A program made the translations under genes and the position numbers. A stretch of 64,000 bases of DNA. Source: Robertmurraya sp. FSL R5-0851 (lineage in GTDB: Bacteria > Bacillota > Bacilli > Bacillales > Cytobacillaceae). The notes below the pieces were generated by a model. The model saw nothing but the letters and a program-made list of their open reading frames with translations, had not been told where the DNA came from and did no database searches. Of this stretch, positions 25,211 through 50,935 are shown one piece after another (the first letter of the stretch is position 1; each line of letters begins with the position of its first letter). Where the stretch lies: the NCBI RefSeq assembly GCF_038002965.1, contig NZ_JBBOOE010000001.1, positions 2,647,001 to 2,711,000 of the forward strand, in the 5' to 3' direction.

Positions 25211-27139
25211 TTAACTTTCATGATTTATACTAAAGCCTTCCATATGTCTCTTTGATAATAGTTTATCTACCTTTCGATTTTCTTTTGTTTCAAAAATAAT
25301 ATCGAAATCATAATCTGGCGGATACAACTCATTTGCCTTAATATGAAGAGTTAAACGCTTATAGTTATAAGACTCCTTTTTTCCTTTTATTTGAACGATG
25401 TAGTTCCCTTTCTCGTCTGGGCCTTTGTATACTATACCAAACACATCCTCAGGAGACACAATGACATTATCACCTTGATTAAACTTTGGAACTGATGAGT
25501 TTGATATTTTCACTCCTTTTTCTCTCGATTGATACTTATTGATAATAATTTGCTTCTCGAGTTCTCTTTTTTCCTGTGGTGAGAAATGCGTTTCTGGATA
25601 CACCTTGTCTTCTTTATAGGTTATTTGATGAGCTCTTTCGATGATCTTCGGGTGAATCCCTAGTTTTAGCGCAATCGCAAACGCTTGGCTTTCTCCTCCC
25701 TTCCCTATAATCAGTCGATAGGTTGGGCGAAGGGTTTCTATATCAAACTCCATCGATCCGTTAATAAATCCTTTTTGATGATCCGCAAACTCTTTGATCT
25801 CACTATAATGTGTCGTTGCTAATAATGTTGTTCCCTTCTTGTAGAGTTGTTCTAGGATTGCTGTTGCTAGCCCCATTCCTTCAGCTGGATCAGTTCCTGA
25901 ACCTAACTCATCCAATAATACTAATGTACGATCATTGGCTTCTTTTAAAATGTCAATAATATTTACGATTCGTGAACTAAAGGTACTTAGGTTTTCTAAA
26001 ATACTCTGTCCATCCCCTATATCGACTAAGATATTTTGAAAAATACTCACTGAACTACCTTCTGCAACCGGTAGGTGTAAACCCGCTTGAGCCATTAGTG
26101 TCAAGAGTCCAACCGTTTTTATGACAACTGTTTTCCCACCCGTATTAGGACCTGTAATGACTAACGCATGTTCAGGTGACCCAAGCTTAAAGTTTAGTGG
26201 GACAACATTTTTACCTAATAAAGGATGTCTTGCTTCAATTAATTCAATATAGTGATTTTCGTTTATAGATACACTTCTCCCATCGATTGCTCGGCTAAAC
26301 TTTGCCTTTGCAAACAAAAAGTCATAGTGAACCATGGTTTCGACTGCCAAACGGATTTGCTGTTCTTTTTCTTCAACTAACCCGGTAAGATACATTAAAA
26401 TCTTTTGAGTTTCCGCTTCTTCATCCATCTTGGTCTTGGTAAGCTGGTCTTGGTAAGTGGTAATTTCTTCAGGTTCAATGAATAAAGTCGATCCTGAGGC
26501 AGAAGTATCTAGAACCGCCCCTTTTACTTTTTGACGATATTCCTTTTTCACTGGTATCACATATCTTCCATCTCTTTGACTAATAACACTTTCCTGCAAA
26601 TAGGTTTTTAGTTTGGATGATCGGACGATTTGTTGAAGTTTTTCTTTTAATCGCTCTTCTTGTATTGCTATTTGTTTTCTAATTTTGAGCAATTCCTTGC
26701 TAGCGTAATCGTCCACAACGCCGTTTCGTATACAGCGATTAATTTCCTCCGCCAATCCAGGCAAGTCATCGATGGAGTAAATATAGCTAGTGACTCGAGG
26801 AGCTAAATACTCCTTATCTTTCATAAAGCGTCTCATTTTTCCACAGCAATCTAAAAAGTCATGTAGCTTCATTAATATATCAGCACGAAGAGCAACCCCT
26901 TTATTGATACTACCCAGTAAGGTATCAATTCCTTCTAGTCCGTGAACAGGTACACTTGAACTCTTTTTCATGATCTCCGCTGCTTCAGTTACTTCATCGA
27001 TCCATGATTGGATTTGTTTTAAATGAAAGGAAGGTGTGAGTTGTAACACCTTTTCTTTTCCTTGACTGGTTAATGCATAATGAGCAATTTCTTCTTTTAT
27101 TACATCAAATTGCAATGTTTCAAACGTATGATTATTCAA
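25211..27139 (-). CDS. MutS2-family ATPase lacking the Smr domain
   Basis: The 642-aa protein has MutS core helices and a coiled-coil clamp. Its ABC ATPase domain has Walker A GPNTGGKT (330-337), the signature LSTFSSRI and Walker B LVLLDELGSGTDPAEG. MutS2 is about 785 aa with a C-terminal Smr nuclease domain; here the end (KLLSKRHMEGFSINHES) has none, so this is a Smr-less paralogue. True MutS2 acts in recombination control and ribosome rescue; this paralogue's role is unknown. The TTG start follows CTAGGAGGAAAAAAA. An IS inserted 27 bases upstream has displaced its native promoter. Confidence 0.88.
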   Translation of the reverse strand: MNNHTFETLQFDVIKEEIAHYALTSQGKEKVLQLTPSFHLKQIQSWIDEVTEAAEIMKKSSSVPVHGLEGIDTLLGSINKGVALRADILMKLHDFLDCCGKMRRFMKDKEYLAPRVTSYIYSIDDLPGLAEEINRCIRNGVVDDYASKELLKIRKQIAIQEERLKEKLQQIVRSSKLKTYLQESVISQRDGRYVIPVKKEYRQKVKGAVLDTSASGSTLFIEPEEITTYQDQLTKTKMDEEAETQKILMYLTGLVEEKEQQIRLAVETMVHYDFLFAKAKFSRAIDGRSVSINENHYIELIEARHPLLGKNVVPLNFKLGSPEHALVITGPNTGGKTVVIKTVGLLTLMAQAGLHLPVAEGSSVSIFQNILVDIGDGQSILENLSTFSSRIVNIIDILKEANDRTLVLLDELGSGTDPAEGMGLATAILEQLYKKGTTLLATTHYSEIKEFADHQKGFINGSMEFDIETLRPTYRLIIGKGGESQAFAIALKLGIHPKIIERAHQITYKEDKVYPETHFSPQEKRELEKQIIINKYQSREKGVKISNSSVPKFNQGDNVIVSPEDVFGIVYKGPDEKGNYIVQIKGKKESYNYKRLTLHIKANELYPPDYDFDIIFETKENRKVDKLLSKRHMEGFSINHES

Positions 27140-27305
27140 TTTTTTTCCTCCTAGTAGAGTAAGCGTATTGTCAAAACTTTTATAGTAAATAGGTTATTAA
27201 ATCCTATCTAAGAGGGCTTTATAAGCAAAAAAATTGCCACCCCCTGAATTCTAAGGATAATTGAGGTTACGACACTCTCAACAACCTAGAAAAGGAAGTG
27301 ACAAT

Positions 27306-28745
27306 TTGTACCCTCAAATTATAACCTATTTATTAACTTTTATAAACTATCAAGAACAACTCATTCGAACATTGCTTACTTTATTGATTGGTAAGAGTAT
27401 GTTTGATAAGCCTACTGAACAGCCCGTAAATAAACCATATCGAAAACTTCAAGTGGACGACCTTCCGGTCATTGAAGTTCTGGAACAGCTTGATTATCGA
27501 GTTCTTCTTAGTGAATATCTAGAGAAGAACGGGAAACCACTTAAACCTGTTCAAAGGCGTAAGAATGCAAAAGTTTCCGTACCTAAAGCCATGAACTGTC
27601 CAAAGTGTGGTGCTCCATCGGATTATCTTTATGCCAACAATGGAGATAAAGGTCAGTATCAATGCAAGGTGTGTACAGAACTTTTCAGTGAAAAGAACCG
27701 TTACTCTAAGGAGGCCATCCTGAAGTGTCCTCATTGTTCCAAGACTCTCGAGAAAATAAAAGAAAGAAAAGATTTTCACGTGTTTAAGTGCAAGAACAAT
27801 GACTGTTTTTATTATCAAAAGAAGCTCAATGGGATGACTTCAAAAGAAAAGAAAAGGTTCAAAAAGGACCCTCAAGCATTTAAATTGAGATACATTTTCC
27901 GTCAGTTTTATATCGATTTCCAGCCGTTATCCAAGGAATCACCAGAACTGCCGGCCGTGGACTTATCAAAGATTTATGCATCCCCACATACATTAGGATT
28001 GATCCTAACCTATCATGTAAACTATGGCCTTTCGGCCCGTAAAACAGCTGCGATTATGCAGGACGTACACGGAGTGATGATTTCACATCAGACTGTATTG
28101 AACTACGAAAATAGCGTAGCTTTATTACTTAAACCTTATGTGGATCACTATCCCTATGAACTTTCAGACCAATTCTGCGGTGATGAAACGTATATCAGAG
28201 TAAACGGTCGATGGCATTATTTATTTTTCTTTTTTGACGCCGTGAAAAAGATTATTCTTTCGTATCCGGTGTCGCCTAATCGAGACACAGCAACAGCCAT
28301 TCGAGCAATTGATGAGGTCTTAATCAAGATGAAAGAGATTCCAGAAAATCTGACCTTTGTGGTAGACGGGAATCCAATCTATCTTTTAGCCCAACATTTC
28401 TTCGCTCAACATGGGATTTCATTCGATGTGAAGCAGGTCATTGGATTAACCAATGAGGACCCTGTTTCGACCGAATATAGACCACTGAAACAAATAATTG
28501 AGAGACTTAACCGCACCTTTAAGGGCAATTATCGCTCCACTCATGGATTCGGCTCTGAACATGGTTCCATTTCATACGTCACCTTATTTACGGCCTACTT
28601 TAACTTTTTGCGTCCGCATGCCGCCTTAGAAGGAAAAGTGCCCGTAGTGAATCCAGAACTCAAGGGGCTTCCAACAATGCCAGCACGTTGGACAAAGCTC
28701 ATTGGATTAGCACAACAATGGATAGTAGAGCAAAGACAAGCCTAA
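27306..28745 (+). CDS. Transposase of the zinc-ribbon DDE element, copy 1
   Basis: The start is a TTG after GGAAGTGACAA, shared by all three copies; the frame runs further upstream without a start signal. The 479-aa protein has two zinc-ribbon motifs (CPKCGAPSDYLY...CKVC, then CPHCSKTL...CKNNDC, about 95-180), a helix-turn-helix-like region, and an IS240/rve-type catalytic core. The acidic residues are in FCGDETYIRV, FVVDGNPIYL and RPLKQIIERLNRTFKGNYR. Family assignment (IS6-like or another group) is uncertain. It is intact and possibly active. Confidence 0.88.
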   Translation: MYPQIITYLLTFINYQEQLIRTLLTLLIGKSMFDKPTEQPVNKPYRKLQVDDLPVIEVLEQLDYRVLLSEYLEKNGKPLKPVQRRKNAKVSVPKAMNCPKCGAPSDYLYANNGDKGQYQCKVCTELFSEKNRYSKEAILKCPHCSKTLEKIKERKDFHVFKCKNNDCFYYQKKLNGMTSKEKKRFKKDPQAFKLRYIFRQFYIDFQPLSKESPELPAVDLSKIYASPHTLGLILTYHVNYGLSARKTAAIMQDVHGVMISHQTVLNYENSVALLLKPYVDHYPYELSDQFCGDETYIRVNGRWHYLFFFFDAVKKIILSYPVSPNRDTATAIRAIDEVLIKMKEIPENLTFVVDGNPIYLLAQHFFAQHGISFDVKQVIGLTNEDPVSTEYRPLKQIIERLNRTFKGNYRSTHGFGSEHGSISYVTLFTAYFNFLRPHAALEGKVPVVNPELKGLPTMPARWTKLIGLAQQWIVEQRQA

Positions 28746-28778
28746 CTTTTTGTTTAGCTGAGCCCTTAAGCTAATTCA

Positions 28779-28928
28779 GCAATCGGCGGAGCGAACTCTT
28801 GACAAACCGAACTTGCCAATGGTTTAAAATGGAAACAACCAAGGGCTTATTTGGTATGCCTTCTTTTGTTCCCTTCGCCCTTGTTAAACAATCCTCAAAC
28901 CATTGGCGTGTTTGTCAAGAGCGATTGC
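28779..28928 (+). other. Conserved multi-stem structure 3' of the transposase, copy 1
   Basis: Nested arms are GCAATCG/CGATTGC, CTCTTGACAAAC/GTTTGTCAAGAG, GCCAATGGTTT/AAACCATTGGC and CAAGGGC/GCCCTTG, enclosing a 30-nt loop conserved in all copies (TTATTTGGTATGCC...). All four arms pair perfectly. The structure follows the transposase stop by 33 bases. In copy 3 the third stem has a different sequence that still pairs, so the structure is under selection. Whether it acts as RNA or DNA is unknown. Confidence 0.75.
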
Positions 28929-28999
28929 GGCGCATCTCCATCCAGTAAATAGGAGAGAAACTAACCCTTTAGGTAGTTTTCATAAATCTTTTGACACTA

Positions 29000-29011
29000 C
29001 CGATTCTACCG
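29000..29011. repeat. 12-bp direct repeat flanking copy 2 (left)
   Basis: CCGATTCTACCG lies between copies 1 and 2 and recurs at 30851-30862 immediately after copy 2. It is a probable target-site duplication; if CCG belongs to the element, the duplication is shorter (ATTCTA plus 1-3 bases). Confidence 0.6.
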
Positions 29012-29159
29012 TATTGTCAAAACTTTTATATTAAAAAAGTTAATAATCCTTGATATAAAGGGGTTTAAATGCAAAAAACTTGCCACCCCCATAGTTTTAG
29101 GATAAAAGTGAGGTTACGACACCGAACACTTAATCCCTAAAAGCTAGGAAGTGACAAGT

Positions 29160-30596
29160 TTGTACCCTCAATTATTAACTTATTTAATGGAATTTATCAA
29201 GTATCAAGATCAGGTAATTCGAACATTACTTACCCTGCTTATTGGGAAGGGCATGTTTGAAAAGCCTGAAGAAACTCCTGTAAATAAACCTTACCGTAAA
29301 CTTCAGGTGGATGATCTTCCGATCATCGAAGCGCTCCAGAAACATGATTATCGTATTCTTCTTACAGAATATCTGGAGAAGAACGGTAAGCATTTAAAAC
29401 CTGTTCAAAGGCGTTCTAATGTAAAGACAGCGGTGTCTACATCAATGAGTTGCCCAAAGTGCGGTGCTCCATCGGATTATCTCTATGCCAATAATGGAGG
29501 CAAAGGACAGTATCAATGTAAGGTGTGTACTTGTGTTTTTAACGAAAAGAGCCGCTATTTGAAAGAGGCTATTTTGAAGTGTCCTCATTGTTCTAAAACA
29601 CTTGAGAAAGTCAAGGCGCGAAAAGACTTTGACGTGTATAAGTGCAAGAATAATGACTGTTCCTATTACCAAAGAAAACTGAATGGTATGTCTTCAAAAG
29701 AGAAGAAACAGTTTAAAAAGGACCCTCAAGCCTTTAAGATTAGATACATTTACCGACAGTTTCGAATTGATTTTCAGCCATTGTCTAAGTCTACTCCACA
29801 GAAGCCAAAGGTAGATTTATCAAGGTTATATGTTTCGCCACATACATTAGGGCTCATTTTAACCTACCATGTTAACTATGGCCTTTCGGCCCGTAAAACA
29901 GCAGCACTGATGAAAGATGTTCACGGGGTATCTATATCGCATCAAAGCATTTTAAATTACGAGAATGCAGTAGCCCTTACACTTAAGCCTTACGTAGATT
30001 ACTACCCGTATGAACTTTCTGACCAGTTCTGCGGGGACGAAACCTATATCAGGGTGAACGGCCGTTGGCATTACTTGTTTTTCTTCTTTGATGCGGTGAA
30101 AAAGATTATTCTCTCTTACCCAGTGTCACCAAATCGGGATACAGCTACGGCGATCCGTGCGATTGATGATGTCTTAGTGAAGATGAAGGATATTCCTAAA
30201 GACCTTACGTTTGTGGTGGACGGCAATCCGATTTATCTTTTAGCTCAACACTTTTTTGCCCAACACGATATTCAGTTCGATATTAAGCAGGTTATCGGGC
30301 TTACCAATGAAGATCCTGTATCAACGGAGTATCGACCACTAAAGCAAGTAATTGAAAGACTCAATCGCACATTTAAGGGTAATTATCGCTCAACACACGG
30401 GTTCGGATCTGAACACGGCTCTGTTTCTTTCGTCACATTGTTTGTGGCTTACTTTAACTTTTTAAGGCCTCACTCTGCATTAGAAGGTAAGGTGCCCGTG
30501 CTTAATCCGGAGTTATCACAGCTCCCGAATATGCCAGCACGATGGTCTAAACTTATTGGTTTAGCACAAGAATGGATCATTGAGCAATCAGCCTAA
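29160..30596 (+). CDS. Transposase of the zinc-ribbon DDE element, copy 2
   Basis: A TTG start follows GGAAGTGACAAG. The 478-aa product is collinear with copies 1 and 3, with both zinc ribbons and the catalytic residues (FCGDETYIRV, FVVDGNPIYL, VIERLNRTFKGNYR). Substitutions are spread along the protein and the frame is intact, as expected for a diverged functional copy. Confidence 0.88.
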   Translation: MYPQLLTYLMEFIKYQDQVIRTLLTLLIGKGMFEKPEETPVNKPYRKLQVDDLPIIEALQKHDYRILLTEYLEKNGKHLKPVQRRSNVKTAVSTSMSCPKCGAPSDYLYANNGGKGQYQCKVCTCVFNEKSRYLKEAILKCPHCSKTLEKVKARKDFDVYKCKNNDCSYYQRKLNGMSSKEKKQFKKDPQAFKIRYIYRQFRIDFQPLSKSTPQKPKVDLSRLYVSPHTLGLILTYHVNYGLSARKTAALMKDVHGVSISHQSILNYENAVALTLKPYVDYYPYELSDQFCGDETYIRVNGRWHYLFFFFDAVKKIILSYPVSPNRDTATAIRAIDDVLVKMKDIPKDLTFVVDGNPIYLLAQHFFAQHDIQFDIKQVIGLTNEDPVSTEYRPLKQVIERLNRTFKGNYRSTHGFGSEHGSVSFVTLFVAYFNFLRPHSALEGKVPVLNPELSQLPNMPARWSKLIGLAQEWIIEQSA

Positions 30597-30629
30597 CTTT
30601 TTTGTTTAGCAGAGCCCTTGAGTAAATCA

Positions 30630-30779
30630 GCAATCGGCGAAGCGAACTCTTGACAAACCGAACTTGCCAATGGTTTAAAATGGAAAAAACCAAGGGCTAT
30701 TTGGCATGCCTTCTTTTTGTCCCCTTCGCCCTTGATAAGGGAATCTCAAACCATTGGCGTGTTTGTCAAGAGCGATTGC
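30630..30779 (+). other. Conserved multi-stem structure 3' of the transposase, copy 2
   Basis: The same nested arms as copy 1 (GCAATCG/CGATTGC, CTCTTGACAAAC/GTTTGTCAAGAG, GCCAATGGTTT/AAACCATTGGC, CAAGGGC/GCCCTTG). The spacers vary while the arms and apical motif (TATTTGGCATGCCTTC) are kept. Confidence 0.75.
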
Positions 30780-30966
30780 GGGTACTTCCAATACAAAAAA
30801 GAGAGAAAAACAAACCCTCAGGTTACTTTTTCATAGAAGTTTTGACACTACCGATTCTACCGATATTCTAGAGGTATGAAGGTAAATCCTCTATTTTACA
30901 CAAGAAAAATCCTCCCTCTATAAATGTTGATCTATCAACGGTTTACCCCGTTGGTGGGGTGTCAAA

Positions 30967-31291: not shown

Positions 31292-32569
31292 TTACATAGC
31301 CTCTGCGAGACTAGGAATATCCTTCATCATTCGCTGAGCGTCAAACGCTTTGTGCTTTGTACATATTCCATGTAACACTTTTAATAGTTTTCCGCATAGT
31401 ACCACGATAGATTGCTTCTTGCGTAACGGATTATCCTTACGGCTTGTGTAATACTCATGTAGTTTTCTAAAGGCTTCATTATGGCGAATCATCGGCATCA
31501 TTACCCGGAAAAGGAGGGCGCGAAGCCTTCTTCTGCCTCTTTTGGAAATGCGTTTTTGTCCTTTATGCTGCCCAGAGGAATTTTCACGTAATGTTAGTCC
31601 CGCAAGTTTAATGATTTGGCGTGGATCTCTATAGTGTGAAAAGCTACCGATTTCAGCTAATAAATCGACAATTGTGATATCTCCAAGTGCTTGAACCGTT
31701 GAGAGCCATTCGTACTCTACGGATGTTTGTGTAAGTTCAACTAAGTGCTGTGTAATACTTTCAATATCTTGTTCCAACTGGTGGTAACGGCGAACGAGTG
31801 TGGCGATTTCAATACGGGCCATCTCACGTCCCTCTGTTACTCCTATGGAGTTAGCAGCGACTTCAATGAGACGCATTGCTTTCGGTCTCTGGGGGGATTT
31901 GAGTCCCTCAACCTGACGATAAAGAGTTAAAACTTCATCGGGTTGTTTCTGATGAAGATCACTTGGAAATGGGGTACATTCAAGTACAGCCATAGCCATT
32001 TTTCCGAATGACGGAAACACCTGGGTAAACTCAGGAAAATAGCGATCTAACCAGCGAATCATCATATTTTTGACAGCTCCAAGTTCCTCTGTCAACTTAC
32101 TTCTAAAGGTTGCGCCCACACGGAGTTCGGCTTCCATGTCTTTCAATATACGTGGATAACTGAAGCGTCCATCTTTTATAAGACGAGCGATTACTAGCGC
32201 ATCTTTACGATCATGTTTGGTTGGTAGATTGTCGTCTAACTCTTTTGATCGCTTGACGTGCATAGGGTTGGCCATAACTAGGGGGATGCCTCGTTCTTCT
32301 AGAAAATAGGCTAAATTGAGCCAGTAATGGCCAGTAGGTTCAATCCCGACGATAACTTCCGTTTTCTCTTGTTCTTTCATTTCACTTAGAACACATTGAT
32401 AGAAAAGCTCAAACCCATCTCGAGATTGAGAAACAGAGAATGACTTTCGGAGCACCCGTCCACGATCATCCACAAAGCATGCGTAATGTGTACGTTTGGC
32501 AATGTCGATTCCAACAACAAGTGTTTTTTCGGTGACTTGATTTATCTTCTGGTTTTGTTTAAAATTCAT
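31292..32569 (-). CDS. IS110-family recombinase (transposase)
   Basis: The start is the ATG at 32569 behind AAGGAGGACTCCAT. The 425-aa protein has the N-terminal RuvC-like DEDD domain (TLVVGIDIAKRTHYACF, then VIVGIEPTGHYW, then KHDRKDALVIARLI), a coiled-coil middle and a C-terminal Tnp domain. The latter has AGLTLRENSSGQHKGQKRIS with the candidate catalytic Ser and RGRRRLRALLFRV. All motifs are intact, so the element may be active. Confidence 0.93.
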   Translation of the reverse strand: MNFKQNQKINQVTEKTLVVGIDIAKRTHYACFVDDRGRVLRKSFSVSQSRDGFELFYQCVLSEMKEQEKTEVIVGIEPTGHYWLNLAYFLEERGIPLVMANPMHVKRSKELDDNLPTKHDRKDALVIARLIKDGRFSYPRILKDMEAELRVGATFRSKLTEELGAVKNMMIRWLDRYFPEFTQVFPSFGKMAMAVLECTPFPSDLHQKQPDEVLTLYRQVEGLKSPQRPKAMRLIEVAANSIGVTEGREMARIEIATLVRRYHQLEQDIESITQHLVELTQTSVEYEWLSTVQALGDITIVDLLAEIGSFSHYRDPRQIIKLAGLTLRENSSGQHKGQKRISKRGRRRLRALLFRVMMPMIRHNEAFRKLHEYYTSRKDNPLRKKQSIVVLCGKLLKVLHGICTKHKAFDAQRMMKDIPSLAEAM

Positions 32570-32691
32570 ATGGAGTCCTCCTTGGTTTACTAAGTTAGGG
32601 GTCATTTCGGTACACGATTTGACACCCCGTATCATACCAAGAGGGCTCTTTTTTGTTCAAGTCCCCGAAAATCCTTCTAACAGGAATGCTC

Positions 32692-41753: not shown

Positions 41754-42209
41754 TTATTGAATGACGATATTTCCTACATATTGGGCAGTTCCTTTATCAG
41801 TAGGTAGGTCTAAAACAATCATAAACTCGCCTTTATCTTTCGGTAAGTTGAAATAAGGACCTGCATTATCCATTTCTAAATCTATTTTGTTTTCATTTTG
41901 CCAAAGCGAAATTTTCACATTTTTCTCGTCAAAATATCCATCTTGAAGGGAAAACTGAACTTTCTGCCCAGAATTAAAGTGCATTTTATTTTGCTTTTTT
42001 GCTAATGAAAGAATATCCTTCGTTTCCTTGTTGTATTTTTCATCAAAAGTCCAATTTATGTTTGCTTCTGCTAATTTTTCTTCTTGAGTAATATCCTCTG
42101 GATTTGTAAGTGAAGCAGTAGGGGGAGAAAAATCATATTCTTCTCCAATACATCCTGTTAATGAAACAACAAAAAACAATCCAAAAAGAAAGATACAAAA
42201 TCTTTTCAA
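41754..42209 (-). CDS. Predicted lipoprotein, 151 aa
   Basis: The signal peptide FCIFLFGLFFVVSLTGC has a lipobox (LTGC, Cys 19), followed by a linker and a beta-rich domain (YFDEKNVKISLWQNENKIDL, GEFMIVLDLPTDKGTAQYVG). It is an exported membrane-anchored protein of unknown function. The TTG start follows GGAGGTGAAATTAT. IS copy 3 begins 27 bases upstream and replaces whatever promoter it had, so it may now be silent or driven from the IS. Confidence 0.75.
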   Translation of the reverse strand: MKRFCIFLFGLFFVVSLTGCIGEEYDFSPPTASLTNPEDITQEEKLAEANINWTFDEKYNKETKDILSLAKKQNKMHFNSGQKVQFSLQDGYFDEKNVKISLWQNENKIDLEMDNAGPYFNLPKDKGEFMIVLDLPTDKGTAQYVGNIVIQ

Positions 42210-42376
42210 ATAATTTCACCTCCATATATTTTTGCGTATTGTCAAAACTTTTATATTAAATAGGCTATAAAATACCTTGATAGAGGGCTTTTTGAGCAAA
42301 AAAATTGCCACCCCCTGAATTTTAGGAAATAGTGAGGTTACCACACCAAACACCAACCTAAAAAGGAAGTGACAAG

Positions 42377-43816
42377 TTGTACCCTCAAATTATAACCTAT
42401 TTATTAACTTTTATTAAGTACCAAGAACAAATCATTCGAACATTGCTTACCCTACTTATCGGAAAAAACATGTTTGAAAAACCAACAGAGCAACCTGTGA
42501 ATAAACCCTATCGAAAACTCCAGGTAGATGATCTTCCGATAATCGAACCACTGGAAAAACTTGATTACAAAACTCTTTTGAAGGAGTATTTCAACGAACA
42601 CGGTAAGTCACTAAAACCTGTTCAAAGGCGATCTAATTCCAAGACTGTTGTACCTAAATCAATGAATTGTCCTAAGTGTGGTGCTCCGTCGGACTATCTT
42701 TATGCCAATAACGGAGATAAAGGTCAATTTCAGTGTAAGGTGTGTTCGTGTCTTTTCAGTGATAAAAATCGTTTTTCAAAAGAGGCCATTTTAAAGTGTC
42801 CTCATTGTTCAAAATCACTCGATAAAATTAAGGATAGAAAAGACTTTTTCGTCTACAAATGCAAAAACAACAACTGTTCTTTTTACCAAAGAAACCTTAA
42901 AGCGATGTCCTCCAAAGAGAAGACACGATTTAAGAAAGATCCTCAAGCATTTAAAATAAGATATATCTTTCGGCAGTTTCATATTGATTTTCTACCTTTG
43001 GCCAAGCAAACGCCTGAACTACCAGCAGTAGATTTGTCTAGGATTTATGCTTCACCACATACATTAGGTTTGATATTAACCTACCATGTTAACTACGGCC
43101 TTTCGGCCCGTAGGACAGCTGCCATTATGCAGGATGTTCATGGTGTGGCTATTTCCCACCAAACGATATTGAACTACGAAAATAGCGTGGCTCTTATGCT
43201 TAAGCCATATGTGGATTACTATCCGTATGAGCTTTCCGACCAATTCTGTGGTGACGAAACTTATATTCGAGTCGGTGGACGCTGGCATTATTTATTTTTC
43301 TTTTTTGATGCGGTTAAAAAGATCATTCTTTCCTATCCGGTGTCTCCTAATCGAGATACAGCGTCAGCCATTCGTGCGATAGATGAAGTGTTAGTAAAGA
43401 TGAAGGAGATCCCGAAAGACCTAACTTTCGTAGTAGATGGAAATCCAATCTACCTACTAGCTCAACACTTTTTCGCACAACATGACATTTCGTTTGATGT
43501 GAAGCAAGTAATCGGGCTTACAAATGATGACCCAGTTTCAACTGAATATAGACCTTTAAAACAGGTAATCGAGAGACTGAATCGAACATTTAAAGGCAAT
43601 TATCGCTCCACTCATGGCTTTGGCTCGCAACAAGGGTCGGTTTCTTTTGTCACCTTATTTGTGGCTTACTTTAACTTTTTAAGGCCGCACGCCACCTTGG
43701 AAGGTAAGGTACCTGTCGTGAACCCAGAATTATCAGGGCTTCCGACAATGCCAGCACGTTGGACAAAACTGATTGAGTTAGCACAAAACTGGATTATCGA
43801 GCAGCAAACCGCCTAA
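42377..43816 (+). CDS. Transposase of the zinc-ribbon DDE element, copy 3
   Basis: A TTG start follows GGAAGTGACAAG. The 479-aa intact product has both zinc ribbons and the DDE motifs (FCGDETYIRV, FVVDGNPIYL, VIERLNRTFKGNYR), collinear with copies 1 and 2 but with scattered substitutions, so it arrived independently. Confidence 0.88.
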   Translation: MYPQIITYLLTFIKYQEQIIRTLLTLLIGKNMFEKPTEQPVNKPYRKLQVDDLPIIEPLEKLDYKTLLKEYFNEHGKSLKPVQRRSNSKTVVPKSMNCPKCGAPSDYLYANNGDKGQFQCKVCSCLFSDKNRFSKEAILKCPHCSKSLDKIKDRKDFFVYKCKNNNCSFYQRNLKAMSSKEKTRFKKDPQAFKIRYIFRQFHIDFLPLAKQTPELPAVDLSRIYASPHTLGLILTYHVNYGLSARRTAAIMQDVHGVAISHQTILNYENSVALMLKPYVDYYPYELSDQFCGDETYIRVGGRWHYLFFFFDAVKKIILSYPVSPNRDTASAIRAIDEVLVKMKEIPKDLTFVVDGNPIYLLAQHFFAQHDISFDVKQVIGLTNDDPVSTEYRPLKQVIERLNRTFKGNYRSTHGFGSQQGSVSFVTLFVAYFNFLRPHATLEGKVPVVNPELSGLPTMPARWTKLIELAQNWIIEQQTA

Positions 43817-43849
43817 CTTTTTGTTTAGCTGAGCCCCTTGGGCTATTCA

Positions 43850-44000
43850 GTAATCGGCGAAGCGAACTCTTGACAAACCGAATGGAGAAAAAGGTTAAAA
43901 TTGGTAATGGTCAAGGGTTATTTGTCATGCCTACTTTTGTTCCCATCGCCCTTGATACTTTTATCGCAACCTTTTTCGACTGTTTGTCAAGAGCGATTGC
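43850..44000 (+). other. Conserved multi-stem structure 3' of the transposase, copy 3 (compensated stem)
   Basis: The outer arms GTAATCG/CGATTGC and CTCTTGACAAAC/GTTTGTCAAGAG and the inner CAAGGG/CCCTTG are kept. The third stem, GCCAATGGTTT/AAACCATTGGC in copies 1 and 2, is here GAAAAAGGTT/AACCTTTTTC: both arms have changed together and still pair over 10 bp. The apical motif (TTATTTGTCATGCC) is conserved. Confidence 0.75.
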
Positions 44001-44069
44001 GGGGCCTCACGTCCCCCCAATGGAAGTGATCTAATACTTTACATAGTTTTCATAGAACTTTTGACACTA

Positions 44070-45482
44070 CCGTCGCCCATTTCTATATTTGAAATCGTTG
44101 GCTATGCTAGAGCTCATTGGGTCCCGATTATCATTTGTTCAAATAAAAATTTTATGAATATTCACCCTCAATGCCCTTCTCTAGAAGACTTGAATATAGA
44201 TAGAGAAGAAGATCCGTCACAAATCGACGAACGCTCAATGAAATTACTCTCAAAAATTAAATCAGAAGCTATAAAACTAGCAAAAATACCCCAACAAATT
44301 CATGAAGAGTCTTTTCATAAAGGTGAAGCTTACATGCTTGAAAGAATAGAGTCGAATGGTACACTATTTAGCTATTTTAGCTCTACCTTTTTTATGATTT
44401 ACTCCCTATTAGCACTCGGATACAAAAAAGATCATCACCTTATTAAAAATGCCATTGAGGGGATGAAATCTTTTCTCTTTGAAGAGAAAGACCTCTATTA
44501 TATTGAAAACTCACCATCTACGGTTTGGGATACTGCACTAATTAGCAGTGCCTTGCATATCGCAGGTGTAAAGGATTCGGATACAATGATAGCAAGCTCC
44601 ACTCAATATTTATTAAATCACCAACATACTACCTTTGGTGATTGGGTGATAAATTGTCCAGACACTCCACCGGGTGGTTGGGGTTTTTCTCCAATCAACA
44701 CGATGGTCCCAGATATAGATGATACGACCGCTGCCTTACGTGCCCTTGCGCCTTCCACTATTGCAAAAAAAACTCCTTCAACCGCTTGGAAAAAAGGAGT
44801 AAACTGGGTAATTTCCATGCAGAACAAGGACGGAGGGTGGGCTGCTTTTGAAAAAAATATCACAAACAAGTGGCTCTCTTTTATCCCTTTCCGATACCAG
44901 GATCGAGTTCTTTTTGACCCATCCACTGCTGATTTGACTGGTAGGACACTTCATTTTCTAGGAGAATACACGAATATTGATAGAAATTCGGCCACAATTA
45001 AAAAAGGAATACATTGGCTAAAGAAGCATCAACTTGAGGATGGCTCATGGTATGGTCGTTGGGGAATTTGCTATATTTATGGTACTTGGGCAGCCGTTAC
45101 CGGATTATTAGCTTGCGGAGTTAATCGGTCCGATCCTTCCATCGAACGAGCGATCAATTGGTTGAATTCCATTCAAAACAATAATGGCGGATGGGGTGAA
45201 TCATGCTCAAGTGACATGAAAATGAAATATACGCCGCTTTATGCTAGTACCCCTTCACAAACCGCTTGGGCTCTTGACGCACTGATACATTATTATGATA
45301 AACCAACAAAAGAAATAGAGCTTGGAATGGAATTTCTCTTATCATCATTTGAAAAAACAAATTGGACGATTGAGTATCCAACAGGGGCCGGTTTGCCTGG
45401 TGGTTTTTATATTCATTATCATAGTTATAACTACATTTGGCCTCTTGTTACAATTAGTAATTATCAACGAAAATATTTATAG
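44070..45482 (+). pseudogene. sqhC: Squalene-hopene (sporulenol) cyclase, 5'-truncated by an IS
   Basis: About 465 codons encode the C-terminal three quarters of a squalene-hopene cyclase. It has the catalytic DIDDTTA motif (in VPDIDDTTAALRAL) and QW repeats (QNKDGGWAAF, QLEDGSWYGRWG, QNNNGGWGES). Full-length family members are about 620-630 aa. The first ~160 residues are missing and the reading frame runs straight out of the IS copy 3 terminal repeat. No ribosome site is present. In B. subtilis, SqhC makes sporulenes in spores. The remnant is probably not functional. Confidence 0.88.
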
Positions 45483-50524: not shown

Positions 50525-50730
50525 CAGAACTCCCCCTTACTGCTTTTAACTTATCTTATATACGGGGCAATGTTTAAAAAGATTCAGATCATTAATATTA
50601 GCAATAGTAAAAACTGACCGGTTAGATGTGCGTTGTGATACGGAGATATTTCGGCAGGCAGGTCCGAGTCACCATCCTCCGCTCCAACTAAATGGGATAA
50701 AATTTAATTTAGTTCTCCTTACTAATACCT

Positions 50731-50935
50731 TGAATCTGAAGGCATTAAATCTAATTTTTGTTCCCTCATTCCACTAATTTCTGGAATCTGAAGGCACTAA
50801 ATCTAATTTTTTCCCTCATTCTACTAATTTTTGGAATCCGAAGGCACTAAATCTAATTTTTGTTCCCTCATTCTACTAATTTCTGGAATTCTAAGGTCCT
50901 AAACTTCAATTCAGCTCCCCCATTCCAACCTATCT
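50731..50935. repeat. Imperfect tandem repeat, four units of 50-52 bp
   Basis: Units starting at 50731, 50783, 50833 and 50885 share GAATCTGAAGGCACTAAAT, then CTAATTTTTGTTCCCTCATT and CTACTAATTTCTG. The middle two are nearly identical and the last is the most diverged. The array lies in a 500-bp gap without genes (50525-51022). Confidence 0.8.

Follow-up and report, generated by a model that had tools for sequence, protein, structure and literature searches.

A covarying four-stem fold with promoter-like letters 3′ of the transposase gene in a DDE insertion sequence

The insertion sequence and its target sites

The window, i.e., the whole stretch of DNA analysed here (64 kb), contains three copies of one insertion sequence, all on the + strand: copy 1 runs end to end from 27164 to 29001, with its transposase gene (tnp) at 27306-28745 including the stop codon, copy 2 from 29010 to 30852 and copy 3 from 42235 to 44071. 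Copy 2 has the 8-bp target duplication GATTCTAC on each side (29002-29009 and 30853-30860), and 8-bp duplications are also found around many of the fetched copies; copy 1 has no such duplication, nor has copy 3, the flanks of which are unequal. The transposases of the three copies match PF13610, the DDE_Tnp_IS240-type catalytic domain, with 36.8, 35.8 and 35.7 bits (cut-off 27), and with the NCBIfam IS6 model they reach 76.6, 75.1 and 76.2 bits, below the cut-off of 125. The host genome (5.3 Mb) holds 18 transposase matches, fragments included, and among the 80 relatives of the transposase kept of 134, the named loci nearest to the protein of the window are from Bacillus and related genera; Heyndrickxia sporothermodurans DSM 10599 alone contributes 23 of the 78 relatives listed. 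Judged by size, domains and 8-bp duplication against published descriptions, the closest group is the long zinc-ribbon clade of IS6 (ISTet2, ISHahy6, ISHco2), described as clade VIII by Harmer and Hall and as clade i by Varani et al. (PMC6807381, PMC7986276). This clade and the insertion sequence of the window have in common a DDE domain, a zinc ribbon with a further N-terminal domain and a length of about 1.7-1.8 kb, and ISTet2 and ISHahy6 are likewise described with an 8-bp duplication (PMC6807381, PMC7986276).

Copies 1 and 2 stand in tandem with 8-bp spacers at 27164-30852. The pair type 1-GATTCTAC-type 2 recurs elsewhere in the genome (L002/L012), and its outer flanks repeat AGCTCTTG, as if the unit had moved; in genome G181, rows of tandem copies are placed about 1846 bp apart (tandem loci including L021). 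The left end carries an inverted repeat, AAATTGCCAC/GTGACAATTT, which pairs 27231-27240 with 27298-27307; its 5′ arm overlaps a promoter-like TTGCCA-16-GATAAT of tnp (27234-27261), and its 3′ arm spans the start codon, which would thus be hidden in read-through transcripts, as it is in IS10 and IS50. The arms of this repeat change in step among relatives, e.g., in L065, L138, L176 and L184, and a simple search, run without a control, gave a stem score of at least 8 in 43 of 78 distinct leaders. Elsewhere in the window, an ORF of 447 aa on the - strand (31292-32635) presumably codes for an IS110-type transposase, which it resembles in sequence, and positions 50720-50903 contain an 82-bp direct repeat in two copies that are 85% alike.

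The choice of target was surveyed in 121 left flanks of at least 300 bp, tandem copies being excluded. Of the 121 flanks, 84 have a CAT beginning at position -26 and 24 have one at -27, and each of the positions -24, -25 and -28 to -31 accounts for 0-3 flanks; a C-run, complementary to the Shine-Dalgarno sequence, is located at -18 to -11 in 101/121 flanks, compared with 5-15 in shifted controls. In 89/121 flanks (controls, 5-16), a CAT located between -32 and -19 starts a leftward frame that has at least 60 codons or continues to the locus end, and some of the target CAT sites open short frames only. The element inserts at a distance of 23-24 bp from a CAT (108/121 flanks), in most cases a start codon, just outside the Shine-Dalgarno sequence and reading away from the gene. 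In the flanks of copies 1 (27137-27163) and 3 (42207-42234), CAA, corresponding to a TTG start, replaces CAT. The target rule also holds in 10/12 flanks of relatives that lack the four-stem fold described below, which leaves guidance of target choice by the loop segment X′ of that fold unsupported. In the part of the literature searched, insertion near Shine-Dalgarno or ribosome-binding sites was not found for insertion sequences of this kind; a target choice so narrow, at a fixed distance from a start-codon-like CAT, is interesting in its own right.

The four-stem fold, its covariation and its strand

In copy 1, four nested stems occupy positions 28779-28928 of the + strand, 3′ of tnp: stem 1 is formed by 28779-28785/28922-28928, stem 2 by 28796-28807/28910-28921, stem 3 by 28815-28825/28897-28907 and stem 4 by 28840-28846/28877-28883, and the match to the structure model (28771-28944) scores 203.9 bits. 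Copy 2 has the identical layout at 30630-30779 (+ strand, 192.3 bits) and copy 3 has an equal architecture at 43850-44000 (+ strand, 137.5 bits), in which stem 3 is altered in both arms; the coordinates at which the first-pass annotation had placed this architecture in the three copies are exact. Against dinucleotide shuffles, RNA folding gives z values of -3.70, -3.88 and -3.76 for copies 1, 2 and 3, respectively, and copy 1 folded as DNA gives -4.32; the DNA minimum-energy fold of copy 1 keeps stems 1-3, with stem 4 absent. As DNA, the - strand is as stable as the + strand (-31.9 and -31.4 kcal/mol), so that folding energy does not choose the strand. A known RNA family was rejected for the folded segment, since the search of the whole window against Rfam returned no match at the gathering threshold (five weak matches at E ≤ 10 stayed below this threshold). 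A scan of copy 1 found neither promoters with 16-18 spacing nor terminators. A coding role for the loop (ATG-CC..) was rejected too, because copies 1 and 2 differ in the length of the T-run and hence in frame.

A covariance model, R1, was built from 22 sequences (alignment A2) and searched against 66 hand-picked sources, most of them chosen since the motif had already been seen there, and 57 were matched. The nine sources without a match were L155, L165, L174, L176, L177, L183, L194, L195 and L196, so that not every member of the family needs the fold. It was found beside transposases with identity down to 46%. Alignment A4 comprises 59 matches with E ≤ 1e-12 from 55 sources, 58 of them distinct, and omits L125 (E 2e-5) and L027 (163.8 bits; off the source list). 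In A4, which was fitted to the model and is hence biased toward it, and in which cells represent sequences and not events, pairing is kept in 97.7% of 2124 cells and 27 of the 37 pairs show changes on both sides; the cells with both-side changes number 241, compared with 53.2 in shuffles (sd 5.6, 0/500 as high) and 19-44 in slid controls, and the covariation score is 0.369, compared with 0.100 in shuffles and at most 0.065 in slid controls. On each of five measures, the observed value was reached by 0/500 shuffles. From a structure-free MAFFT alignment of 41 sequences (A1), in which stems 3 and 4 are misaligned, RNAalifold recovered only stems 1 and 2 and the mini-hairpin between them, with 21 pairs, 11 of which have compensated changes.

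The proposal that the compensated change in copy 3 reflects selection on structure is strongly supported by these results, the covariation in the larger homologue alignment being clear. Indeed, all 11 pairs of stem 3 have both-side changes, with 96.2% of the cells paired; the stem swapped in copy 3 is found also at L079, L080, L082, L150 and L152, and further variants of it at L091, L108, L144, L154, L162 and L164, which together show that the swap is not a recombination patch. The other three stems had seemed nearly invariant among the copies of the window; this does not extend to the wider family, where both-side changes affect 6/7 pairs of stem 1, 4/12 of stem 2 and 6/7 of stem 4.

Within the host genome, the structure model gave 29 matches: 17 were full-length on the transposase strand and 12 were partial matches on the opposite strand, due to the same palindromes. 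Sixteen of the 17 full-length matches lie 3′ of transposase matches. The remaining one, L215 (G000:C1:4358896-4359072), is a 3′ remnant that begins inside stem 3 and keeps the right end, with no transposase match nearby; it adjoins a leftward CAT and a CCCTCC run. Under stricter filters, a match to the structure model was obtained in 16 of 193 genomes of the family. A blastn search of plasmids returned one record only, with a 36-bp stretch beside a transposase remnant, and no sequence match to the folded element was found in phages.

The mismatches that the stems tolerate are informative on the strand. Non-Watson-Crick cells of the + strand in A4 are G-T in 40 cases and A-C in 9 (at 19 and 7 of the 37 pairs), and stems 1-2 of A1 contain 11 G-T and 2 A-C. 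Since G-T exceeds A-C, selection acts on one folded + strand, either RNA or single-stranded DNA; the choice initially offered, between an RNA and a DNA hairpin used in transposition, is therefore narrowed to a single + strand. The same bias bears on mutational homogenisation. Template-switch correction of imperfect palindromes alters both arms together, and could thus give joint changes without any selection; however, such correction is strand-blind and would treat G-T and A-C alike, as would a cruciform, so that the bias speaks against both. As the internal loops, moreover, remain unpaired and majority letters make up 0.81 of the structure columns against 0.54 of the 14 columns immediately 3′, homogenisation is a highly improbable source of the pattern.

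Promoter-like letters and a repeat in the apical loop

The duplex of stem 2 contains a -35-like TTGACA on the + strand at 28799-28804 (copy 3: 43870-43875), in which TTGA is present in 58/58 sequences and C in 57/58, while the sixth base is A in 49 and C in 9; the hexamer reads TTGACA in 48, TTGACC in 9 and TTGAAA in one. A -10-like TAAAAT on the same strand (28825-28830; copy 3: 43896-43901) has its first base in the pair that ends stem 3 and its other bases in the internal loop. It conforms to TAnAnT (T1 56/58, A2 57/58, A4 57/58 and T6 57/58), with positions 3 and 5 varying, as in TATAAT (L136), TATACT (L162) and TACACT (L154). The -35 and -10 letters are thus fixed, whereas the neighbouring pairs vary with compensation, and the loop strand facing the -10 is not conserved, as expected for a built-in bubble. 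The layout of the fold is that of an open promoter, with the -35 in stem 2, the -10 in the internal loop and stem 4 beyond. Measured linearly, the -35/-10 spacing in the 58 sequences is 20 in 39, 19 in 16, 18 in 2 and 16 in 1, whereas counting along the 3′ arm gives 15 in 42, 16 in 11, 17 in 2 and 18 in 3; the linear value of 19-20 in 55/58 is too long with respect to the usual 16-18, and the 15-18 along the 3′ arm supports a folded promoter.

These letters may also be read as an ordinary outward double-stranded promoter at the right end, the inverted repeats serving a DNA-binding protein, e.g., the transposase. The letters do point outward, and the linear spacing is normal in L118 (16) and L125 (TTGACT-17-TACAAT), yet nearly all the other elements have the long spacing; similarly, L174/L183 carry a linear consensus promoter, TTGACA-16-TATAAT, near the right end without such a hairpin, which together with L125 argues against a need for the fold, but a protein site would keep fixed letters, and here the variable positions change in pairs and with a strand bias. 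The retention of TTGACA in stem 2, when it is lost from some terminal repeats, also tells against this explanation, which is considered improbable. On the same grounds, stem 2 was rejected as a copy of the terminal repeat.

L176 and L177, which are 84% alike and 45% identical to the protein of the window, are without the four stems; each has instead a long hairpin (z -5.56 and -8.32), whose duplex takes in TTGACA and the spacer and whose open end carries TTATGCT. Some of the differences between the two hairpins are compensated, in a comparison of two elements only. The order of duplex -35, spacer, -10 bubble and downstream duplex is thus seen with two topologies.

Between stems 1 and 2, positions 28786-28792 of the + strand form a GC-GNA-GC mini-hairpin, which is GCGNAGC in 52/58 sequences (with all four N) and GTGNAAC in 3, while 2 have GNNA loops (GGTA, GTTA) and one is an exception. 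DNA mini-hairpins with a GNA or GNNA loop and two or more G-C pairs are described as extraordinarily stable (PMC4686876), a property that favours DNA without proving it.

The apical loop had been regarded as a conserved binding site. This holds for its 5′ half (TATTTGGTATGCC-like, 28848-28860, + strand), while the 3′ half varies together with the bases past the transposase stop. The latter segment, X (28740-28754, + strand), lies around and beyond the stop codon (28743-28745) and is followed by GAGCCC at 28760-28765; X′ (28858-28870, + strand), in the 3′ half of the loop, is a co-varying direct repeat of X. The longest word shared by X and X′ has a mean length of 7.96 within elements, compared with 6.22 (sd 0.16) when partners are swapped, with 0/20,000 permutations as high, in a test on 51 unique pairs from 53 parsed rows that left kinship uncontrolled, kept the mis-parsed L020 and L128 as low scores and set aside the 6/59 rows without GAGCC. 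Shared bases number 14 in L164, 12 in L148 and in L107, 11 in L091 and 9 in L065, and elements with an X of their own and a matching X′ include L065/L148/L134, L144, L154, L164, L107 and L197. In L118, X and X′ do not match, and the X of L134 fits the X′ of its close relatives L065/L148 (10) better than its own (7). Differences between X and X′ are divided 8 to 8 between the sense and antisense copy strand, several rows being mis-parsed, and so favour neither. A search for anti-X elsewhere in the element gave best values of 10-12/16 letters, none outstanding (6/21 elements, without a chance level). Pairing of X′ with the 5′ internal loop in a pseudoknot, inspected by eye, was inconsistent and was rejected.

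To our knowledge, DDE transposases have so far been thought to recognise DNA by protein alone. That a DDE transposase of the IS6 kind should use a nucleic-acid guide, with the loop X′ or its RNA copy base-pairing with X of the same element, appears rather unlikely; through such a loop the donor copy would be recognised or supplied with a primer.

Possible roles of the folded strand and related systems

Covariation and G-T bias suit RNA no less than DNA, and the segment adjoins tnp on its 3′ side and shares its strand, with X′ presented in a loop as in a guide. That the transposase transcript yields a structured RNA from its 3′ end is thus possible, if somewhat doubtful; this RNA would bind the transposase, use X′ as a guide, mimic an open promoter in the manner of 6S RNA or regulate the tnp message. 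It leaves the fixed -35 and -10 letters unexplained, however, no adjoining terminator was found in the scan of copy 1 and the segment belongs to no Rfam family. 6S RNA itself has an open-promoter shape; the fold of the window differs from it in having no Rfam match, and its exact -35 and -10 letters suggest recognition as DNA.

The reading tentatively preferred is that the folded + strand is a promoter or single-strand origin of the sso/Frpo type, through which the segment may help the element to copy itself. From the fold, its strand, the fixed letters with their positions and the X/X′ match, all directly observed, we infer the following course. The + strand would become single-stranded, for instance when displaced in replicative transposition, and fold into the four stems; stem 2 would supply a double-stranded -35 (TTGAC), stem 3 the spacer, the internal loop a pre-melted -10 (TAnAnT) and stem 4 the downstream duplex. 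Host RNA polymerase would bind the fold and copy the 3′ arm toward the loop; the short RNA copied over X′ could then re-anneal at X, just outside the hairpin, and prime the second strand through tnp to the left end. With the segment so close to the 3′ end of the + strand, a single priming event could copy the entire displaced strand. A role as single-stranded DNA would explain the strand bias and the location, the promoter letters with their spacing and their positions in the fold, and the mini-hairpin, and the X/X′ match fits a moved primer. We know of no single-stranded intermediate for IS6-type elements.

Single-strand origins offer the nearest likeness. ssoA, of about 160 nt, is described as folding in the single-stranded state, with priming by RNA polymerase (PMC5703833), and sso1 of ICEBs1 is reported to have been cloned into the sso-deficient plasmid pHP13 in B. 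subtilis (PMC4595007). Like the sso of rolling-circle plasmids and of ICEBs1, the fold of the window is an imperfect one-strand hairpin of about 150 nt with promoter-like letters; it differs in having no plasmid sequence match save the transposase remnant, in its placement in a DDE insertion sequence and in the X/X′ repeat. Frpo of the F plasmid is reported to fold into a structure recognised by RNA polymerase (PMC11541004), and Frpo/ssi resemble the fold of the window in having the -35 in a duplex and the -10 within a folded single strand; unlike them, the fold lies outside a conjugative leading region, and whatever is copied from the + strand would run antisense to tnp. With the IS110 bridge RNA and the IS1111 seekRNA the fold has in common a structured segment adjoining the transposase gene and a loop that matches DNA of the element. 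The guide-RNA elements of IS110/IS1111 are, however, described as having DEDD recombinases (PMC11187229), whereas the insertion sequence of the window has a DDE/IS240-type domain, and its X lies some 250 bp inward from the right end instead of at a terminus.

In the accessible parts of the accounts of the ISTet2 clade, neither a folded 3′ element nor a ribosome-binding-site target is mentioned, unlike what is found in the window (PMC6807381, PMC7986276), and for the longer IS6 elements the reviewers, in the part of their text available, report having found no experimental data (PMC6807381). A literature search, based on listings and covering few subscription journals, returned no report of a conserved folded promoter, a single-strand origin or a guide-like loop in any DDE insertion sequence. 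If the fold acts as DNA, it shows a way in which a replicative transposon can see to the copying of its displaced strand, for which general host functions usually serve; if it acts as RNA, the most familiar class of transposases joins the RNA-assisted mobile elements.
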